Virus record (IMG/VR): IMGVR_UViG_3300027743_000096
Coordinates: 1 to 21,857 of that record
Length of the DNA: 21,857 bases
Direction: 5' to 3' (one strand)
Source of the DNA: a virus
In this document: piece by piece, positions 2,515 to 21,189 of the stretch
Numbering within the stretch: the first letter of the stretch is position 1
Layout: every line of letters begins with the position of its first letter
The notes under the pieces: model-generated
Seen by the model: only the letters and a program-made list of their open reading frames with translations
What the model was told of the DNA's origin: nothing
The model's database searches: none
Made by a program: the position numbers and the translations under genes

Positions 2515-4260
2515 GTGGTTCTATCGAATACTGCGACACCTCTCTACTACGGTCAATTCCGTGAAGCGGTTCTTCGTGGTGACATTCCAGTCAATAGGGA
2601 AGTCTCTATGGAGATGAACAGGATCGACGATCTGATTGCCAACCCAAAGATATACTATGACTCTGACGCAATTACTGGTTTCGTTCAGTATTGCGAATGG
2701 GAACTCACTCTCACTGATGGTAGCGATCTACATCTACTTGACTCGTTCAAACTTTGGGCGGAACAGGTCTTCGGTTGGTACTTCTTCATCGAGAGGAGTG
2801 TCTTCGAGCCTAATGAGAATGGGCGCGGCGGACACTATGTGACCAAGTCCATCAAAAAGCGGCTGGTGACGAAGCAGTATCTCATTGTCGCAAGAGGTGC
2901 TGCGAAGTCGATGTACGCATCCTGTATACAAGCCTTCTTCTTGAATGTAGATACCGAGACAACTCATCAAATCACTACGGCCCCGACTATGAAGCAGGCC
3001 GACGAAGTGATGAGTCCGTTCAGGACTGCCATCATTAGGTCGAGGGGACCGTTGTTCAGGTTCCTCACCGAGGGTTCGTTGCAGAACACGACAGGTTCTC
3101 GGTCTCAGCGCGTCAAGCTGGCTTCTACGAAGAAGGGGGTCGAGAACTTTCTGACTGGGTCGTTGCTTGAGGTCCGTCCTATGACGATCAACAAGCTTCA
3201 AGGTCTCCGTCCTAAGGTTTCGACTATCGACGAATGGTTGTCCGGAGACATTCGAGAGGATGTGGTCGGTGCAATCGAGCAAGGCGCGTCCAAACTCGAG
3301 GACTATCTGATCGTCGCGACGAGTTCAGAAGGCACGATCCGCAATGGTTCTGGTGACACCGTCAAAATGGAACTCGCTTCCATACTTCGCGGAGACTATC
3401 AAGCACCTCACATTTCGATCTGGCATTACAAACTCGACGAGATCGAGGAAGTGAACCAACCAGAGACTTGGTTGAAGGCTAATCCGAACCTTGGCAAGAC
3501 GGTTACGTACGACGTATACCATTTGGATGTCGAACGCGCAGAGAAAGCACCAGCTTCACGCAACGACATCCTCGCCAAACGCTTCGGAATCCCGATGGAA
3601 GGATACACGTATTTCTTCACATACGAAGAGACTCTACCTCATCGTGCAAGAGAGTTCTGGGGACTTCCCTGTGCACTCGGGGCGGACCTTTCACAGGGTG
3701 ATGACTTTTGTGCGTTCACTCTTATCTTTCCGTTTCAGAATTATTCATTTGGAGTGAAGACAAGAAGCTACATCACCTCGTTAACTCTGATGAAACTTCC
3801 TGGGGCCATGAGGTCCAAGTACGAAGAGTTCATTCAGGAGGGTAGTTTGCAGGTTCTGGATGGAACTGTGCTCGACATGATGGAGGTGTACGAGGATCTA
3901 GACGCGTTCATCAGAACTAACGAGTACGACGTCCGGTGTTTTGGCTTTGACCCATACAACGCAAAGGAATTCGTCACTCGATGGGAAGTCGAGAACGGTT
4001 CGTACGGAATCGAAAAGGTAATCCAAGGCGCGAGGACCGAATCAGTCCCTCTTGGCGAGTTGAAGATCTTGTCCGAGGAAAGAAAGCTTATTTTCGACCA
4101 AGAGCTTATGTCGTTCGCCATGGGAAACGCAGTTACTCTGGAAGATACCAACGGAAACCGTAAACTTCTAAAGAAACGAGCAGATGAAAAGATAGACAAC
4201 GTCTCGGCCATGATGGACGCATACGTTGCTTACAAGGCTAACAAGGAGGCGTTCGAATGA
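2515..4260 (+). CDS. terL: Terminase large subunit
   Basis: This 581-residue protein is the ATP-driven DNA packaging motor and nuclease. The ATPase Walker A-type loop is VARGAAKS (about residues 125-132), and the Walker B is VSTIDE (235-240, with Asp239-Glu240). The coupling motif is probably ATSSEG (268-273). The C-terminal nuclease shows its acidic metal ligands at Asp391 (GADLSQGDD), Asp479 (GFDP) and Asp561 (KIDNVSAMMDAY). This arrangement fits the HK97/Terminase_1 family. The start is GTG after an AAAGGGG site. The gene follows the small structural genes and precedes the portal by 40 bases. All expected motifs are intact. Confidence 0.95.
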   Translation: MVLSNTATPLYYGQFREAVLRGDIPVNREVSMEMNRIDDLIANPKIYYDSDAITGFVQYCEWELTLTDGSDLHLLDSFKLWAEQVFGWYFFIERSVFEPNENGRGGHYVTKSIKKRLVTKQYLIVARGAAKSMYASCIQAFFLNVDTETTHQITTAPTMKQADEVMSPFRTAIIRSRGPLFRFLTEGSLQNTTGSRSQRVKLASTKKGVENFLTGSLLEVRPMTINKLQGLRPKVSTIDEWLSGDIREDVVGAIEQGASKLEDYLIVATSSEGTIRNGSGDTVKMELASILRGDYQAPHISIWHYKLDEIEEVNQPETWLKANPNLGKTVTYDVYHLDVERAEKAPASRNDILAKRFGIPMEGYTYFFTYEETLPHRAREFWGLPCALGADLSQGDDFCAFTLIFPFQNYSFGVKTRSYITSLTLMKLPGAMRSKYEEFIQEGSLQVLDGTVLDMMEVYEDLDAFIRTNEYDVRCFGFDPYNAKEFVTRWEVENGSYGIEKVIQGARTESVPLGELKILSEERKLIFDQELMSFAMGNAVTLEDTNGNRKLLKKRADEKIDNVSAMMDAYVAYKANKEAFE

Positions 4261-4300: not shown

Positions 4301-5557
4301 GTGTCACTCATTGATCAATTGAAGAAGGGCTGGAACGCTTTTCGTAATAACAACCAGCAAATGGATCAAGCGCTGGAGTATACTACTTCTTATTTCGGTG
4401 GCGGGTCGCCTTCTAGACCTCGATTTCACATATACAACGAACGGTCCATTGTTTCGTCCGTTTACACCAAAATCAGCATAGATGTAGCCGGTCTTGTACT
4501 AAAGCACGTCAAGATCGACAAAAACGGTCGATATCTAAAGGATGTTCCCAGTCATTTAAACGAATGTCTTCTATGGGAACCGAATATTGATCAATCGCCA
4601 AGGCCATTTCGTCAAGATATCGCTATGACGCTGTTTGACAAGGGCGTAGCGGCGATTGTTCCGGTAGATACGTCCCGAGATCCAGCTACGAATGTTCTAT
4701 GGGACATTTATAGTATGAGGGTCGGTGACATTACTACTTGGTATCCAAAACACGTAAAAGTTAATGTGTACAATGAGAACAAGGGTATGCGAGAAGAGAT
4801 CATTATAGAGAAGCGCAATGTAGCGATCATTGAGAACCCTTTGTATGGAGTAATGAACGAACCGAACTCGACATTGCAGAGATTGATCCGAAAGTTGGGT
4901 CTTCTCGACGCGGTCGATGAGCAATCCGGTTCTGGAAAGCTAGATCTAATCATCCAGTTGCCGTATGTCATCAAGTCTGAAGCTCGACGACAACAAGCTG
5001 AGCAACGACGTGAAGACATCGAGTTCCAATTGAAGGGAAGCCAATACGGCATTGCCTATACAGACGGAACCGAGAAGATCACACAGCTTAATCGACCAGC
5101 CGAGAACAACCTTTTGAAGCAGGTCGAGTATCTAACTAATCTGTTGTACAGTCAACTTGGCTTAACGCCAGAAGTAATGGATGGTACTGCCGACGAAGAG
5201 GCTATGCTTAATTATTTCAACCGTTCAGTTGAACCGATTGTCGACGCCATTGTTGAGTCCATGCAAAGAGCGTTCCTTGGGCCCCAGGGTTCGCTAGGTG
5301 ATGAAAGAATTAAGTACTTCAGGGATCCGTTCAAGCTGGTTCCTGTTAATTCGATCGCTGAGATTGCCGACAAGTTCACTCGTAACGAGATTCTTACCGC
5401 TAATGAGATTCGGACATTCATGGGGATCAAGCCTGCTGATGATCCGAAGGCAGATCAGCTAGTTAACAGCAACATGCCACAGCCGGAAGAACCGAAAGTA
5501 TTGGCGAAAGCTCCGGGGCCGCTAGCTTTAGAAAGGGTTAGTCAAAATGGAACCTGA
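4301..5557 (+). CDS. Portal protein (HK97-like family)
   Basis: This 418-residue protein would form the dodecameric ring at the capsid vertex through which DNA enters and leaves. The N-terminal part has the SIVSSVYTKISIDVAGL helix typical of phage portals. The C-terminal part has NNLLKQVEYLTNLLYSQLG and LTPEVMDG, followed by a helix that likely lines the channel. The end, LTANEIRTFMGIKP, is the usual portal 'N-E-R-x-x-x-G' segment. It starts at GTG after GGGAGGTGAT, and the last 11 bases overlap the protease-capsid gene. Length is within the family range. Confidence 0.92.
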   Translation: MSLIDQLKKGWNAFRNNNQQMDQALEYTTSYFGGGSPSRPRFHIYNERSIVSSVYTKISIDVAGLVLKHVKIDKNGRYLKDVPSHLNECLLWEPNIDQSPRPFRQDIAMTLFDKGVAAIVPVDTSRDPATNVLWDIYSMRVGDITTWYPKHVKVNVYNENKGMREEIIIEKRNVAIIENPLYGVMNEPNSTLQRLIRKLGLLDAVDEQSGSGKLDLIIQLPYVIKSEARRQQAEQRREDIEFQLKGSQYGIAYTDGTEKITQLNRPAENNLLKQVEYLTNLLYSQLGLTPEVMDGTADEEAMLNYFNRSVEPIVDAIVESMQRAFLGPQGSLGDERIKYFRDPFKLVPVNSIAEIADKFTRNEILTANEIRTFMGIKPADDPKADQLVNSNMPQPEEPKVLAKAPGPLALERVSQNGT

Positions 5558-7433
5558 TTTCAGTGGGTACGCGACGAAGGCAGGGCTCAAGTGCTCTGAT
5601 GGGCGAACTATCTTGCCCGGTGCCTTCAAGCATCAGGACAAGGCTCGTGTTCCTCTCGTCTGGCAACACGGTCACTCTGATCCAGAGAACGTCCTAGGTC
5701 ATACCATCCTGGAAAACCGTGATGATGGTGTCTATGCCTATGGCTACTTCAACGGGACGTCCAAGGCGGAACACGCCAAGGGACTTCTAAGTCATGGCGA
5801 CATCAGCATGTTGTCCATCTGGGCAAACGAACTGATCGAGAGGTCTGGACGGGTCCTTCATGGGTCCATCCGTGAGGTCAGTCTAGTTCTGTCCGGTGCC
5901 AATCCAGGCGCGCTCATCGAGAACGTCACGATTCGGCACAGCGATGGCGACGAGACTCTCGAGGATGAGGTCATCATCTACACCGGTCTCGAGCTTGAGC
6001 ACGCCGATGGCGAAGAAGAGTCCGATACCAAGGGCGAGACCATTCAAGACGTTTATGACACAATGAATGATAAGCAGAAGCAAGTACTTCATTACATGCT
6101 CGGTCAGGCGCTCCAAGAGGCTGACACAGAAGACCTACAACAAGATAATGTTGACGACAAGAACAACACCAAGAGCGATGATAAGGAAGGGACCGGAATG
6201 ACCCGCAACGTCTTTGAGTCTGGCACGCAGAAGGAAACTGAAGCACCAGTTCTCTCGCATGCCGACATGAAGGGAATTGTTGCCGACGCCACCAAGACGG
6301 GTTCTCTGAAGACGGCTGTCGAGAATTACGCGATTTCTCACGGCATCAACCAGATCGACACGCTCTTCCCAGAGGCTACCGCGCTCACCACTGAGCCAGA
6401 GTTCTACACCCGTCGCACTGAGTGGGTGAACTCGGTTCTCAACGGTGCCCGAAAGACTCCCTTCAGCCGCGTCAAGACGCATTGGGCGGATCTCACGTAC
6501 GATGACGCCCGAGCCAAGGGTTACATCACCGGGACAGAGAAGACCGAGGAGTTCTACGGGACTGCCAGGAGGGAAACGAGCCCGCAGACCATCTACAAGA
6601 AGCAGCAGCTGGATCGAGACGACATCCTGGACGTCACCGACTTCGATGTGGTGGCCTGGATGAAGAGCGAGATGCGTCTCATGCTCGATGAGGAGCTGGC
6701 GCGTGCGATCCTGCTCGGTGACGGTCGTACTCTCGGCACTGACCCTGACAAGATCCTGGAAGATCGCATTCGTCCGATCGCCAAGGACGATCCGCTGTTC
6801 GTGATCACGGTTCTCGCCGATTTGGCTGCCGGTGACATCTCGGACTTCGTCGACGCGGTCATTCAGTACCGTGCTCTGTACCGAGGTACCGGAACTCCGA
6901 CCATGTACACGAGTGAGTCACTGATCGCCCAGATCATGCTCCTCAAGGACACGATGGGGCGTCGTATCTACACCTCGGTCGAGCAGTTCGCGGCAGAGCT
7001 TCGCGTTTCCTCGGTCGTCCCTGTCGATCTCTTCGACCCCGCGGCGGGCAGTCCGTTGGCCATCATCGTCAACATGAACGACTACGTCATCGGCGCGGAC
7101 AAGGGCGGACAGGTCAGTCTGTTCGACGACTTCGACATCGACTTCAACCAGTACAAGTACCTGATCGAGACTCGAGTCTCTGGCGCGTTGGTCAAGCTGA
7201 AGTCTGCGATCGTCGTCAAGCAGGGTACCTTCGTTCCTCCGCCCGCCGGTACTCCTCACATCATCGTTCCTGAGCCCCCGAACAACCGTCAGAGCAGCCC
7301 TTCGGTTCACGGGTCGCTTCCCGATGACGATGGCCTTCCTCTCGGTACCTCCGCCACTGAGGGCCAGACGCGTCGTGGTGGTGAGCGTAGTGAGCGTGGC
7401 GGCGACAGGGACCGTCGCCCACAGTCTGAATAG
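5547..7433 (+). CDS. Fused prohead protease and major capsid protein
   Basis: This 628-residue polyprotein joins two head genes that are usually separate. Residues 1 to about 130 are an S78/HK97-type prohead protease. The likely catalytic residues are His41 (VWQHGH), Ser90 (ISMLSIWA) and Glu110 (REVSLV). Residues about 131-217 are an acidic, low-complexity linker or scaffold. From about 218 the HK97-fold capsid protein follows (TEPEFYTRRTEW, ILLGDGR, ETRVSGALV). Residues about 558-628 are a Pro/Gly/Arg/Asp-rich tail without an obvious fold. The capsid half is visibly richer in C-ending codons than the portal, consistent with high expression. A second start is supported at 6198, inside the gene. 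Confidence 0.9.
   Translation: MEPDFSGYATKAGLKCSDGRTILPGAFKHQDKARVPLVWQHGHSDPENVLGHTILENRDDGVYAYGYFNGTSKAEHAKGLLSHGDISMLSIWANELIERSGRVLHGSIREVSLVLSGANPGALIENVTIRHSDGDETLEDEVIIYTGLELEHADGEEESDTKGETIQDVYDTMNDKQKQVLHYMLGQALQEADTEDLQQDNVDDKNNTKSDDKEGTGMTRNVFESGTQKETEAPVLSHADMKGIVADATKTGSLKTAVENYAISHGINQIDTLFPEATALTTEPEFYTRRTEWVNSVLNGARKTPFSRVKTHWADLTYDDARAKGYITGTEKTEEFYGTARRETSPQTIYKKQQLDRDDILDVTDFDVVAWMKSEMRLMLDEELARAILLGDGRTLGTDPDKILEDRIRPIAKDDPLFVITVLADLAAGDISDFVDAVIQYRALYRGTGTPTMYTSESLIAQIMLLKDTMGRRIYTSVEQFAAELRVSSVVPVDLFDPAAGSPLAIIVNMNDYVIGADKGGQVSLFDDFDIDFNQYKYLIETRVSGALVKLKSAIVVKQGTFVPPPAGTPHIIVPEPPNNRQSSPSVHGSLPDDDGLPLGTSATEGQTRRGGERSERGGDRDRRPQSE
6183..6200 (+). promoter_or_regulatory. 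Internal ribosome binding site for free capsid protein
   Basis: AAGGAAGGG at 6183-6191 is followed by ACCGGA and an in-frame ATG at 6198-6200 (Met218 of the fusion, MTRNVFESG). The spacing suits initiation. Use of this start would give a 411-residue capsid protein without the protease, in addition to the full polyprotein. It sits at the boundary between the acidic linker and the capsid part, as a natural second start should. This is inference from the sequence, not shown by data. Confidence 0.5.
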
Positions 7434-8079: not shown

Positions 8080-8955
8080 ATGCCAGCCCTTGTTTGGGAT
8101 CTTGTCGGCGAACGCTTCTACGAAACCGGCATCGATCACGGTGTTCTGTACATTCCGGATCAGGCAGGAGACTATTCCGAGGGGGTCGCCTGGAACGGGC
8201 TTACCAGTGTCTCGGAAACTCCTACCGGAGCTGAGTCGAATGCTCAGTACGCAGACAACATTAAGTACCTTAACCTCATCTCGGTCGAGGAGTTCGGCGC
8301 GACGGTAGAGGCCTTCACCTACCCGGATGAATTCGCTCAGTTCGACGGGTTGGGTGTTCCTGGCCCAGGTATCTTCGTAGGTCAGCAGCCGCGCAAGACG
8401 TTCGGTCTCTCGTATCGGACCCGCGTTGGTAACGATCTCGAGGGAGATGCTCACGGGTACAAGCTGCACCTCGTCTACGGTTGCATTGCCAGTCCGTCCG
8501 AGAAGGCGTACAACACCATCAACGACTCTCCCGAAGCCATCACCTTCAGCTGGGAGATTTCAACTACTCCGGTTCCCGTATCTGGTTACCAGCCCACATC
8601 TCTACTTGTCGTAGACTCGACTCTTGTCGACTCGACGCAACTTCAGGCACTGGAGTCGGAATTGTACGGTGGAACAACGGATGCTGCGAGACTTCCGTTG
8701 CCCGACGAGGTGATCTCCATGCTCGGCGGTGGCGGACCCCTGGAAGCTACTGGCGCAACCGCTGGTACTCCTGGTACATGGACCCCAGGTGGATCCAACC
8801 CGCCAGGAGATGTCGCGTCGTTGCAGTCTTCTGGCATCGTGGCTTCGCCGACAACTGCCTGGACAACGGGTCAGTACGTTCAGACGATCACGATCGGTCC
8901 TTCCGGGCAAGCTCACTGGGATGGCTCTGCTTGGGTCACCGGGACAGCACCCTGA
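8080..8955 (+). CDS. Major tail protein, copy 1
   Basis: This 291-residue tail-tube protein starts at ATG after AAGGAGA. The first about 215 residues are shared with the paralogue at 9531 (LVWD..G.RFYETG, VAWNGLTSV, YPDEF, FGLSYRT.VGNDL, GYKLHLVY). The C-terminal about 75 residues differ: a Gly/Pro/Thr-rich linker, then a small domain with WTTGQYVQTITIG and GQAHWDGSAWVTGTAP. The codons are strongly biased to C-ending forms, like the capsid gene, so this copy is probably the abundant tube subunit. The C-terminal domain may decorate the tail surface, which is inference. Confidence 0.8.
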   Translation: MPALVWDLVGERFYETGIDHGVLYIPDQAGDYSEGVAWNGLTSVSETPTGAESNAQYADNIKYLNLISVEEFGATVEAFTYPDEFAQFDGLGVPGPGIFVGQQPRKTFGLSYRTRVGNDLEGDAHGYKLHLVYGCIASPSEKAYNTINDSPEAITFSWEISTTPVPVSGYQPTSLLVVDSTLVDSTQLQALESELYGGTTDAARLPLPDEVISMLGGGGPLEATGATAGTPGTWTPGGSNPPGDVASLQSSGIVASPTTAWTTGQYVQTITIGPSGQAHWDGSAWVTGTAP

Positions 8956-9530: not shown

Positions 9531-10352
9531 ATGGCCACACTTGTCTGGGACGAAATCGGACAACGTTTCTACGAAACCGGCGTTAGCAAATGCGTCTTTT
9601 ATGATGACGAAGGCCACGGAGTTTCCTGGAACGGTCTTACCTCCGTAGAAGAATCGATATCGGATGAAGTGCAGGCAGTTCACTTCGACGGCTTGAAATT
9701 CAACGACATCTTGACAGTTGGTGACTTCTCGGCTGTCATACGAGCGTGGACCTATCCAGATGAGTTTCTACCTTATGAAGGAATTCTGGAGGAACAAAAA
9801 GGTTTCTTCATGGCGCACCAACCGAGAAGTAAGTTTGGGCTGTCATACCAAACCAAGGTTGGGAACGATCTTGCCGGAATAGAACTTGGGTATAAGATTC
9901 ACCTCTTGTATAACCTGACTGCGATTCCTGCGCAAAAAGGATACCAAACTCTTTCGTCGGACTCAGAGCCTCTTGAATTTGAGTGGACAGTTACTGGCAT
10001 CCCTGAATACATGGAGAACTATAGGCCAACTGCGCACATTATTTTCGATAGTAGAAGATTAGATCCATGGCTTCTCGAAGACATAGAAAGCATTATTTAT
10101 GGCGACGAAGATAATGACGCATATCTTCCGCCTTTGAAGGGTCTTGGCACGTTCATTCGTAAGTGGGACCGGCTCATCATTACCGATTATGGCGATGGAA
10201 CGTGGAGCGCAGAAACTCCTCGCGATGGCATAATTGTCATGCTCGATGACACGACTTTCGAAATCACGGCCGAAACTATTAATTACCTGGATCCAGACAC
10301 TTACGAGATTTGGAGCAGTGACAAGAACGAGGAGGATATATGGCAAAGGTAA
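9531..10352 (+). CDS. Major tail protein paralogue, copy 2
   Basis: This 273-residue protein starts at ATG after TTGGAGGT. It is clearly homologous to the 8080-8955 product over about 210 residues (LVWD..G.RFYETG, VSWNGLTSV, WTYPDEF, FGLSYQTKVGNDL, LGYKIHLLYN). Its C-terminus differs and carries GDGTWSAETP.DGIIVMLDDTTFEI and LDPDTYEIWSS, a small beta-domain often seen on tail-tube proteins. Codons are less biased, with more AGA and AT-ending forms, than in copy 1, so expression is probably lower. The last 13 bases overlap the fibre gene. A minor tube protein or tail-tip adaptor are both possible; function is inference. Confidence 0.75.
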   Translation: MATLVWDEIGQRFYETGVSKCVFYDDEGHGVSWNGLTSVEESISDEVQAVHFDGLKFNDILTVGDFSAVIRAWTYPDEFLPYEGILEEQKGFFMAHQPRSKFGLSYQTKVGNDLAGIELGYKIHLLYNLTAIPAQKGYQTLSSDSEPLEFEWTVTGIPEYMENYRPTAHIIFDSRRLDPWLLEDIESIIYGDEDNDAYLPPLKGLGTFIRKWDRLIITDYGDGTWSAETPRDGIIVMLDDTTFEITAETINYLDPDTYEIWSSDKNEEDIWQR

Positions 10353-20039: not shown

Positions 20040-20225
20040 ATGGTTGGTTATGCGATAGTTGCGATCCTTGGTATTGTGATTGGGTTTGTTCTGGCCGGAT
20101 GGAAAATCAGTAGAGACTACAGACAGCTAAGGGAGAAGCTTGAATTCGAAGAAGAGCTACGACTCAAAGAAGGTGGGTGGCTCCAAGATGATGCTGAGCG
20201 GGAAGGCGGAACTGAGCATGCTTAG
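20040..20225 (+). CDS. Small single-pass membrane protein with charged tail
   Basis: This 61-residue protein starts at ATG after AAGGAGAAGCGA. Residues about 3-22 form a membrane helix (GYAIVAILGIVIGFVLAGW), followed by a charged helical tail (RDYRQLREKLEFEEELRLKE). Size, single helix and coiled-coil-like tail resemble small phage membrane proteins, including some holin-like and spanin-like proteins, but no specific motif is visible. Its last eight bases overlap the start of the secreted protein gene, so the two are probably expressed together. Transcription may come from readthrough of the preceding terminator. Confidence 0.55.
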   Translation: MVGYAIVAILGIVIGFVLAGWKISRDYRQLREKLEFEEELRLKEGGWLQDDAEREGGTEHA

Positions 20226-21189
20226 AACCAGACAGTCGTTTATGGCAGGTGTTTTCGTTTGTGCTGTTCTGTGTCTGTTGATATTCATCCTTGTTGATAG
20301 TGCATCTGGGCAGATTCCAGACGATCAGCGGCCTCCACTGGTCACTGACTACGCGAACTACCCAGGAACGCCTCAGGCATTTTTGACACCTGGGTGTGAC
20401 TTCAGTGGGGTCCTCAATCCCACATTCGGAGCGCATATTCAACTCACGAACACCGATTTCGGTCCAGTTAACGACCTTGGGTTGCTCCCGACCCTTACTC
20501 AAGGTGATTTGGTTCGTATGGCGTGGACGGACGTCGCGCCTGAGTGCATCGGTTCCGCCGTGTCGTTCGTCGTCAAGGTAGCACTTGGGCCGTCCTTCGA
20601 TCCGAACGTGGATCAGTTAACAGGACCTAATGGAGGATACAGTGTTGAATTCCTGGTGGCTGGACCTGGTGAGATTACTTTTCCAATGCCTGATCTGGCA
20701 CGTTTTGGCCTCGGCTGTGATTATCAGCTTGATGCCATCGTTGGTATCCCGCTGCGAGATGTTGGGCCGTCGGGGTCGTTCTTCTCAGAAGCACTGCGTG
20801 TACAGCAAGGGAAACAGACTGCTGATAATCGAACCACTGTGATATCGGCCAAGAACGGTACGTACCCTGACTGCGTTCCGACTGGGACCACGACAACCGT
20901 GCCTCCGACCACAGTCCCTACGACGGTTCCTCCGACCACAGTCCCGACGACTGTGCCTCCGACAACGTCACCGCCGAGTTCAGCCGCGCAGACGAGTAGC
21001 CCCCCGCAGACGTTCAGCGCGCCGCCACCTACTTCACCTCCCACTACGACTCACTTCCCCTTTGGGGCAACCGGTCCGGGGGACGTGTACGGTCTGGCTC
21101 CGCTGTTTGCGTTCGCGGCCTTCGTGCTCGGCTTGATGTTCTTTGCGTTGGAGAGGCATCGCCGTTCGCAAGGGAAACAAGCTTTATAG
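20218..21189 (+). CDS. Secreted, Thr/Pro-stalked membrane-anchored protein
   Basis: This 323-residue protein has a signal sequence: RTRQ, then a hydrophobic core (about 8-27), then DSASG with possible cleavage before Gln32. The ectodomain (about 55-220) has four Cys (60, 110, 167, 219), enough for two disulfides, and beta-rich strands. A stalk follows (about 222-280), rich in Thr and Pro, with a nine-residue VPPTTVPTT repeat. A membrane helix (about 291-312) and basic end (ERHRR) close it. The FGATG before the helix resembles a degenerate sortase sorting signal. I chose ATG 20218 because it gives the signal sequence and overlaps the upstream stop. A phage-encoded surface protein is likely; function is unknown. 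Confidence 0.7.
   Translation: MLRTRQSFMAGVFVCAVLCLLIFILVDSASGQIPDDQRPPLVTDYANYPGTPQAFLTPGCDFSGVLNPTFGAHIQLTNTDFGPVNDLGLLPTLTQGDLVRMAWTDVAPECIGSAVSFVVKVALGPSFDPNVDQLTGPNGGYSVEFLVAGPGEITFPMPDLARFGLGCDYQLDAIVGIPLRDVGPSGSFFSEALRVQQGKQTADNRTTVISAKNGTYPDCVPTGTTTTVPPTTVPTTVPPTTVPTTVPPTTSPPSSAAQTSSPPQTFSAPPPTSPPTTTHFPFGATGPGDVYGLAPLFAFAAFVLGLMFFALERHRRSQGKQAL
20902..20967 (+). repeat. 27-bp tandem repeats coding the VPPTTVPTT stalk
   Basis: CCTCCGACCACAGTCCC occurs at 20902 and 20929, and a partial third unit at 20956, at a 27-base period. Each unit codes nine residues. Such repeats can expand or contract and change stalk length. Confidence 0.7.

Follow-up and report, generated by a model that had tools for sequence, protein, structure and literature searches.

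The protease-major capsid fusion gene studied here carries a second, in-frame start signal at the joint between its two parts. This signal is real and is under selection at the RNA level throughout the family, and initiation at the predicted internal start, ATG 6198, is very likely. We consider it highly probable that the gene is read from two starts in one frame, yielding the fusion as well as a protease-free capsid protein, and that the two proteins co-assemble and are later cleaved.

The Fusion Gene and Its Predicted Internal Start

The window, meaning the whole stretch of DNA that was analyzed, is the 21,857-base virus record IMGVR_UViG_3300027743_000096, and it carries genes for the head and tail of a siphovirus-type phage. 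The fusion gene is preceded by the terminase and portal genes, its start overlaps the portal stop, and the genes for a major tail protein and the tape measure lie downstream. The features referred to below are the following.

2515-4260, terminase
4301-5557, portal
5530..5537, + strand, Shine-Dalgarno sequence AGAAAGGG of the full-length start ATG 5547, read from the sequence
5547..7433, + strand, protease-major capsid fusion gene (628 aa, 69.3 kDa)
5547..5936, + strand, predicted prohead-protease domain (residues 1-130)
5937..6197, + strand, acidic linker (residues 131-217)
6183..6191, + strand, putative internal Shine-Dalgarno element AAGGAAGGG
6198..6200, + strand, putative internal start codon ATG (Met218)
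6198..7433, + strand, predicted free capsid product (411 aa, 45.4 kDa)
7251..7430, + strand, disordered and variable C-terminal tail (residues 569-628)

The open frame of 628 codons matches Pfam Phage_capsid as well as PHROG 3270, the latter over its full length and with both domains (residues 2-559 on profile positions 4-566 of 603, E 1.2e-217). On this match the gene product is assigned to the PHROG 3270 protease-capsid fusion family, whose members related to it carry the annotation "major capsid and protease fusion protein."

The protease domain is predicted from a match of residues 5-127 to the prohead protease profile TIGR01543 (E 3e-9), with a score of 37.1 bits that is below the curated cut-off of 59, and from a match of residues 5-214 to the head maturation protease family PHROG 3244 (E 3e-7). 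Residues His-41, His-52, Ser-90, Glu-110, and Ser-112 of this domain are invariant among 46 homologues. An AlphaFold2 model, of moderate confidence overall (mean pLDDT 66), shows an ordered protease part, a disordered stretch around Met218 (residues 193-233), and a capsid domain of the HK97 type; pLDDT is below 50 throughout the C-terminal tail. The top Foldseek hits of this moderate-confidence model are shell proteins with the HK97 fold (E about 1e-8). Residues 219-558 match the major capsid profile TIGR01554 with 33.3 bits, above the cut-off of 27.5, and residues 320-557 match PF05065 (Phage_capsid) with 34.9 bits against a cut-off of 24.2. By profile and by predicted fold, the capsid part is an HK97-type major capsid protein. 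Solved structures were also searched by sequence; the profile found none, and the protease part gave only one hit, at chance level.

The linker contains 27 Asp and Glu residues against 6 Lys and Arg, so that it was rightly called acidic in the preliminary description. A conserved helix at 166-192 (175-192 in the model) is followed by a disordered, hypervariable end from residue 193, and in the alignment the linker before Met218 varies freely in both length and residues. In four homologues (L036, L037, L038, and L051) the helix motif (VYDSMxxxQxxVLHYMxGxAL) is doubled, with two copies before the joint.

Six bases separate AAGGAAGGG from the in-frame ATG at 6198, from which 411 codons extend to the stop. 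The preliminary description had proposed a ribosome binding site and an in-frame ATG at this place, and all of its numbers are correct. It had also located the ATG between the linker and the capsid domain, in agreement with the start of the capsid profile at residue 219 and with the disorder of residues 193-233 in the model.

Three further observations concern the rest of the window. The genes at 8080-8955 and 9531-10352 encode two related major tail proteins (42% identical over 206 residues) that both match PHROG 2645, and a 180-aa ORF separates the two genes; PMC13313380 likewise reports a pair of related tail subunits for Rhodococcus cluster CB phages. A 124-aa ORF at 2122-2496, which overlaps the upstream ORF in another frame, contains the motif HHGVKGMKWGVRKS; its PHROG matches are one virion structural family and many families of unknown function. 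The 349-aa ORF at 20140-21189 encodes a Thr/Pro-rich repeat (TTVPPTTVPTT) together with two hydrophobic stretches, one close to either end, and its product is possibly a surface or lysis-region protein.

Conservation of the Joint Start

Two sets of homologues were compared. For the first, 80 viral contigs, 24 phage records, and the window were reduced to 81 sequences under 93% identity. Using the conserved residue Phe-223 as an anchor, a sequence passed when a start codon in frame lay 3-8 codons before this residue and the accompanying Shine-Dalgarno sequence reached an energy of -7 kcal/mol or better. All 81 non-redundant homologues pass. As a control, the same test applied at 517 anchors in the gene gave a mean pass rate of 3.9%, and the best other anchor, which lies beside the conserved Met376/379, reached 46%. 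On this comparison, chance is ruled out as the origin of the joint start and its predicted Shine-Dalgarno sequence.

One of the six seed peptides used to collect the first set (DDKEGTGM) spans the joint, and for this reason the named phages found by tblastn and a second set served as checks. The second set consists of bacterial and metagenome-assembled contigs, mostly from Clostridia and other Firmicutes according to the record titles, and its seeds (FDDFDID and T[IV]YKKQ[KQ]L) lie in the capsid domain, far from the joint. It contains 62 non-redundant members, and all of the 60 that cover the joint pass. In the two sets together, 141 of 141 testable homologues thus have ATG, GTG, or TTG in frame at the joint, accompanied by a Shine-Dalgarno sequence. 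Phages with widely differing bacterial hosts share the predicted start signal.

In five complete phage genomes of the family, a Phage_capsid match occurs only once each. With no second gene of this kind, all subunits of the shell must come from the fusion gene.

Selection on RNA Rather than on Protein

The start codon in the first set is ATG in 72 sequences, GTG in 7, and TTG in 2, and the tree shows at least six changes of its identity, all of them among these three codons. In the second set there are 50 ATG and 10 GTG codons, and every one of the ten valines is encoded by GTG. No other valine or leucine codon occurs at this position in either set. At the other methionine columns of the gene, GTG or TTG account for 35 of 408 non-ATG codons (8.6%).

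The Shine-Dalgarno sequence behaves in a similar way. In the second set its GGAG core is found in codon phases 0, 2, and 1 in 41, 18, and 1 cases, respectively, and is spelled through 46 different residue quartets, which indicates selection on the RNA and not on a peptide motif. Homologues without the residues EG still have a purine element (AGAAAGG, AAAGGAG, or GAGGAGG). Most actinobacterial members have GGAAGG, a moderate match, and some have AGAAAGG; the longer CCUCCUUUCU end of the actinobacterial 16S RNA allows pairing with either. In these members Glu-214 is encoded by GAA in 68 of 72 cases, whereas most other conserved glutamate columns favor GAG. The other exception of equal strength is Glu-2, which adjoins the upstream start.

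RNA structure is also weaker at the joint than elsewhere in the gene, with a mean at the 89th percentile (n = 81); in the window the joint is only modestly open (80th percentile, fold z 0.41). The strength of the joint Shine-Dalgarno sequence does not exceed that obtained by synonymous recoding of the same residues (mean p 0.57), since the element is already spelled by the conserved residues. The claim of a start signal therefore rests on its conservation.

A different origin of the free capsid protein can be considered, in which only the fusion is made and the protease cuts at the linker, with EG-x-M as a conserved cleavage site. Maturation proteases of such a kind do cut capsid precursors, as established for HK97, and the residues K/Q-E-G-x-M-x-R-N are conserved as protein, too, in the actinobacterial members. 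Across the family, however, these residues vary (KGG, EEDD, EKG, QTGG, and SREG), whereas the Shine-Dalgarno sequence and the start codon are kept. Cleavage also has no need for valine to be encoded as GTG or leucine as TTG, and we regard it as an improbable explanation of the joint.

The element could instead act as a programmed pause or folding signal with no part in initiation. A slowing of elongation has been proposed for Shine-Dalgarno-like sequences within genes, and the site lies exactly between the domains of the model. A pause would work without a start codon set at a constant spacing, yet all 141 homologues have one, which makes this role highly unlikely. Least probable of all is a separate transcript for the free capsid protein, initiated from a promoter in the linker. 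A sigma-70-like sequence at 6121-6149 does match at 10 of 12 positions, but 9 or more matches occur at 6% of joints compared with 3% elsewhere, and its GATAAT reflects a QDN motif of the protein whose codons vary; on both grounds a conserved internal sigma-70 promoter was rejected. In addition, promoter-like sites are no more numerous than chance, and an internal start would still be needed on such a transcript.

Two Predicted Products of One Gene

For the reading with two starts in one frame, we infer the use of 6198 by ribosomes, the ratio of the products, their co-assembly, and the later cleavage as follows. Initiation at 5547 would produce the 69-kDa protease-linker-capsid fusion, and independent initiation at 6198, through AAGGAAGGG in a weakly structured stretch, would produce a 45-kDa capsid protein free of the protease. 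Since both contain the same capsid domain, they could co-assemble into a procapsid, where the fused copies would carry the protease inside. The protease would later cut itself and the N-terminal segments away.

The preliminary description had expected only a few protease-carrying copies, and this is not supported by the strength of the two sites. In the first set, the mean Shine-Dalgarno energy is -11.0 kcal/mol upstream and -9.2 kcal/mol at the joint, with the upstream site being stronger in 69 of 79 sequences. The corresponding values in the second set are -11.8 and -11.1 kcal/mol (stronger upstream in 37 of 57), and in the window the two are about equal (duplex energies of -9.1 upstream and -9.7 kcal/mol at the joint). 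Host factors, codon context, and the passage of translating ribosomes across the joint could each push the product ratio in either direction.

The 411-aa protein had also been described as a free capsid protein. Its start has very strong comparative support, but as a plain capsid gene product it falls short of an unfused counterpart by about 85 N-terminal residues. This counterpart, the capsid protein of Streptococcus phage Str03, is 23% identical to the capsid domain of the window, and before the aligned part it has a long N-terminal region that was judged by eye from the sequence to be coiled coil. In the alignment, residue 35 of the 411-aa product is paired with Str03 residue 119. The internal product would therefore begin near where the delta domain ends and be without about 85-90 residues of a coiled-coil domain of the delta type. 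An N-terminal delta domain of about 100 residues is absent from the 411-aa product, and TIGR01554 is matched only from position 86. The work of a scaffold may be done either by the short segment 218-275 or by residues 131-217 in the fused copies only.

A more far-reaching proposal, which we offer tentatively and consider rather doubtful, is that the capsid protein is born without a delta domain and that the fused copies bring both the protease and the scaffold-like segment 131-217. The procapsid would then be a mixture set by translation, with only some subunits having both, and the same arrangement would have evolved separately in unrelated fusion lineages. If true, such a procapsid would be unlike that of HK97, where every subunit has its own scaffold.

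Protease-capsid fusions are remarked on as an oddity in numerous sequenced phages, and the dual supply has gone unexplained. The conserved second start answers in principle how one gene can supply hundreds of shell subunits as well as the protease. The system is a natural case for the effect of the ratio between protease-bearing and plain subunits on capsid assembly, and the family includes phages already grown in teaching laboratories.

Comparison with Known Systems

The closest described relatives are the "major capsid and protease fusion" genes of actinobacteriophages (Arthrobacter clusters AM/AU, Microbacterium EL, Gordonia, and Streptomyces; PHROG 3270). They are about 38-53% identical to the fusion of the window, homologous over nearly the full length, and found in the same order of portal, fusion, connectors, and tail. 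They are annotated as one CDS without an internal start, whereas the joint start is present in all 23 annotated phage records. PMC5513430 and PMC7302621 describe the protease-capsid fusion, and PMC13313380 describes a Rhodococcus cluster with one gene for both functions; the available text of these three papers does not mention an internal start in the fusion. No report of an internal start in such fusions was found in the literature covered, and an earlier notice may exist, for instance in work on Rhodococcus equi phages, Gifsy-2, or Lactococcus phage 1706. An ATG discussed for gp9 of phage EpicDab precedes the protease domain of that protein and is a separate case.

The predicted free capsid protein is missed in the annotations of the records examined. 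In Rhodococcus and Lactococcus phage records (L088, L105, L103, and L104), the fusion is named only "prohead protease" or "head maturation protease," and in ReqiPepy6 and ReqiPoco6 a gene in the usual position of the major tail protein is called "head protein." With the fusion named for its protease alone and the head label on a gene in the tail position, the capsid protein has been overlooked there.

A second family of fusions, found in small-genome phages of the Maggie/RRH1 kind, has little or no sequence similarity to the type of the window according to PMC5513430. In Maggie, three close relatives, Atraxa, GMA5, and RRH1, the ATG at the joint has the best or second-best Shine-Dalgarno sequence of the gene, and in L113 this sequence is weaker and among the best in the gene. 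Emperor (L118) has no joint start. The sample, which includes L106:3704-5287, L117, L119, and L120, is small and the test was less rigorous; it suggests that the joint-start solution arose more than once. Together with the conservation of the joint start and the selection on RNA, this parallel family makes internal initiation very likely.

The Gifsy-2 capsid gene is tripartite, with a ClpP-like protease, a middle region, and the capsid in one reading frame. Its protease is of a different class from that of the window, where NF045541, an NCBIfam model for fusions of this kind, has no match and a Pfam scan found no ClpP family. HK97 gp4/gp5 and unfused relatives such as Str03 have the same two functions in the same order, with related capsid domains. 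There, however, the genes are separate, and a coiled-coil delta domain of about 90 residues is part of the unfused capsid protein but not of the 411-aa product.

In phage lambda, C and Nu3 are nested in-frame genes that share a C terminus, and the shorter product is made from an internal start. The nested product of lambda is the scaffold, whereas here it would be the major capsid protein. The lambda scaffold-protease fusion is cited in PMC5513430. As in a nested in-frame gene, an internal start with a ribosome-binding site under selection is found here in each of the 141 homologues.
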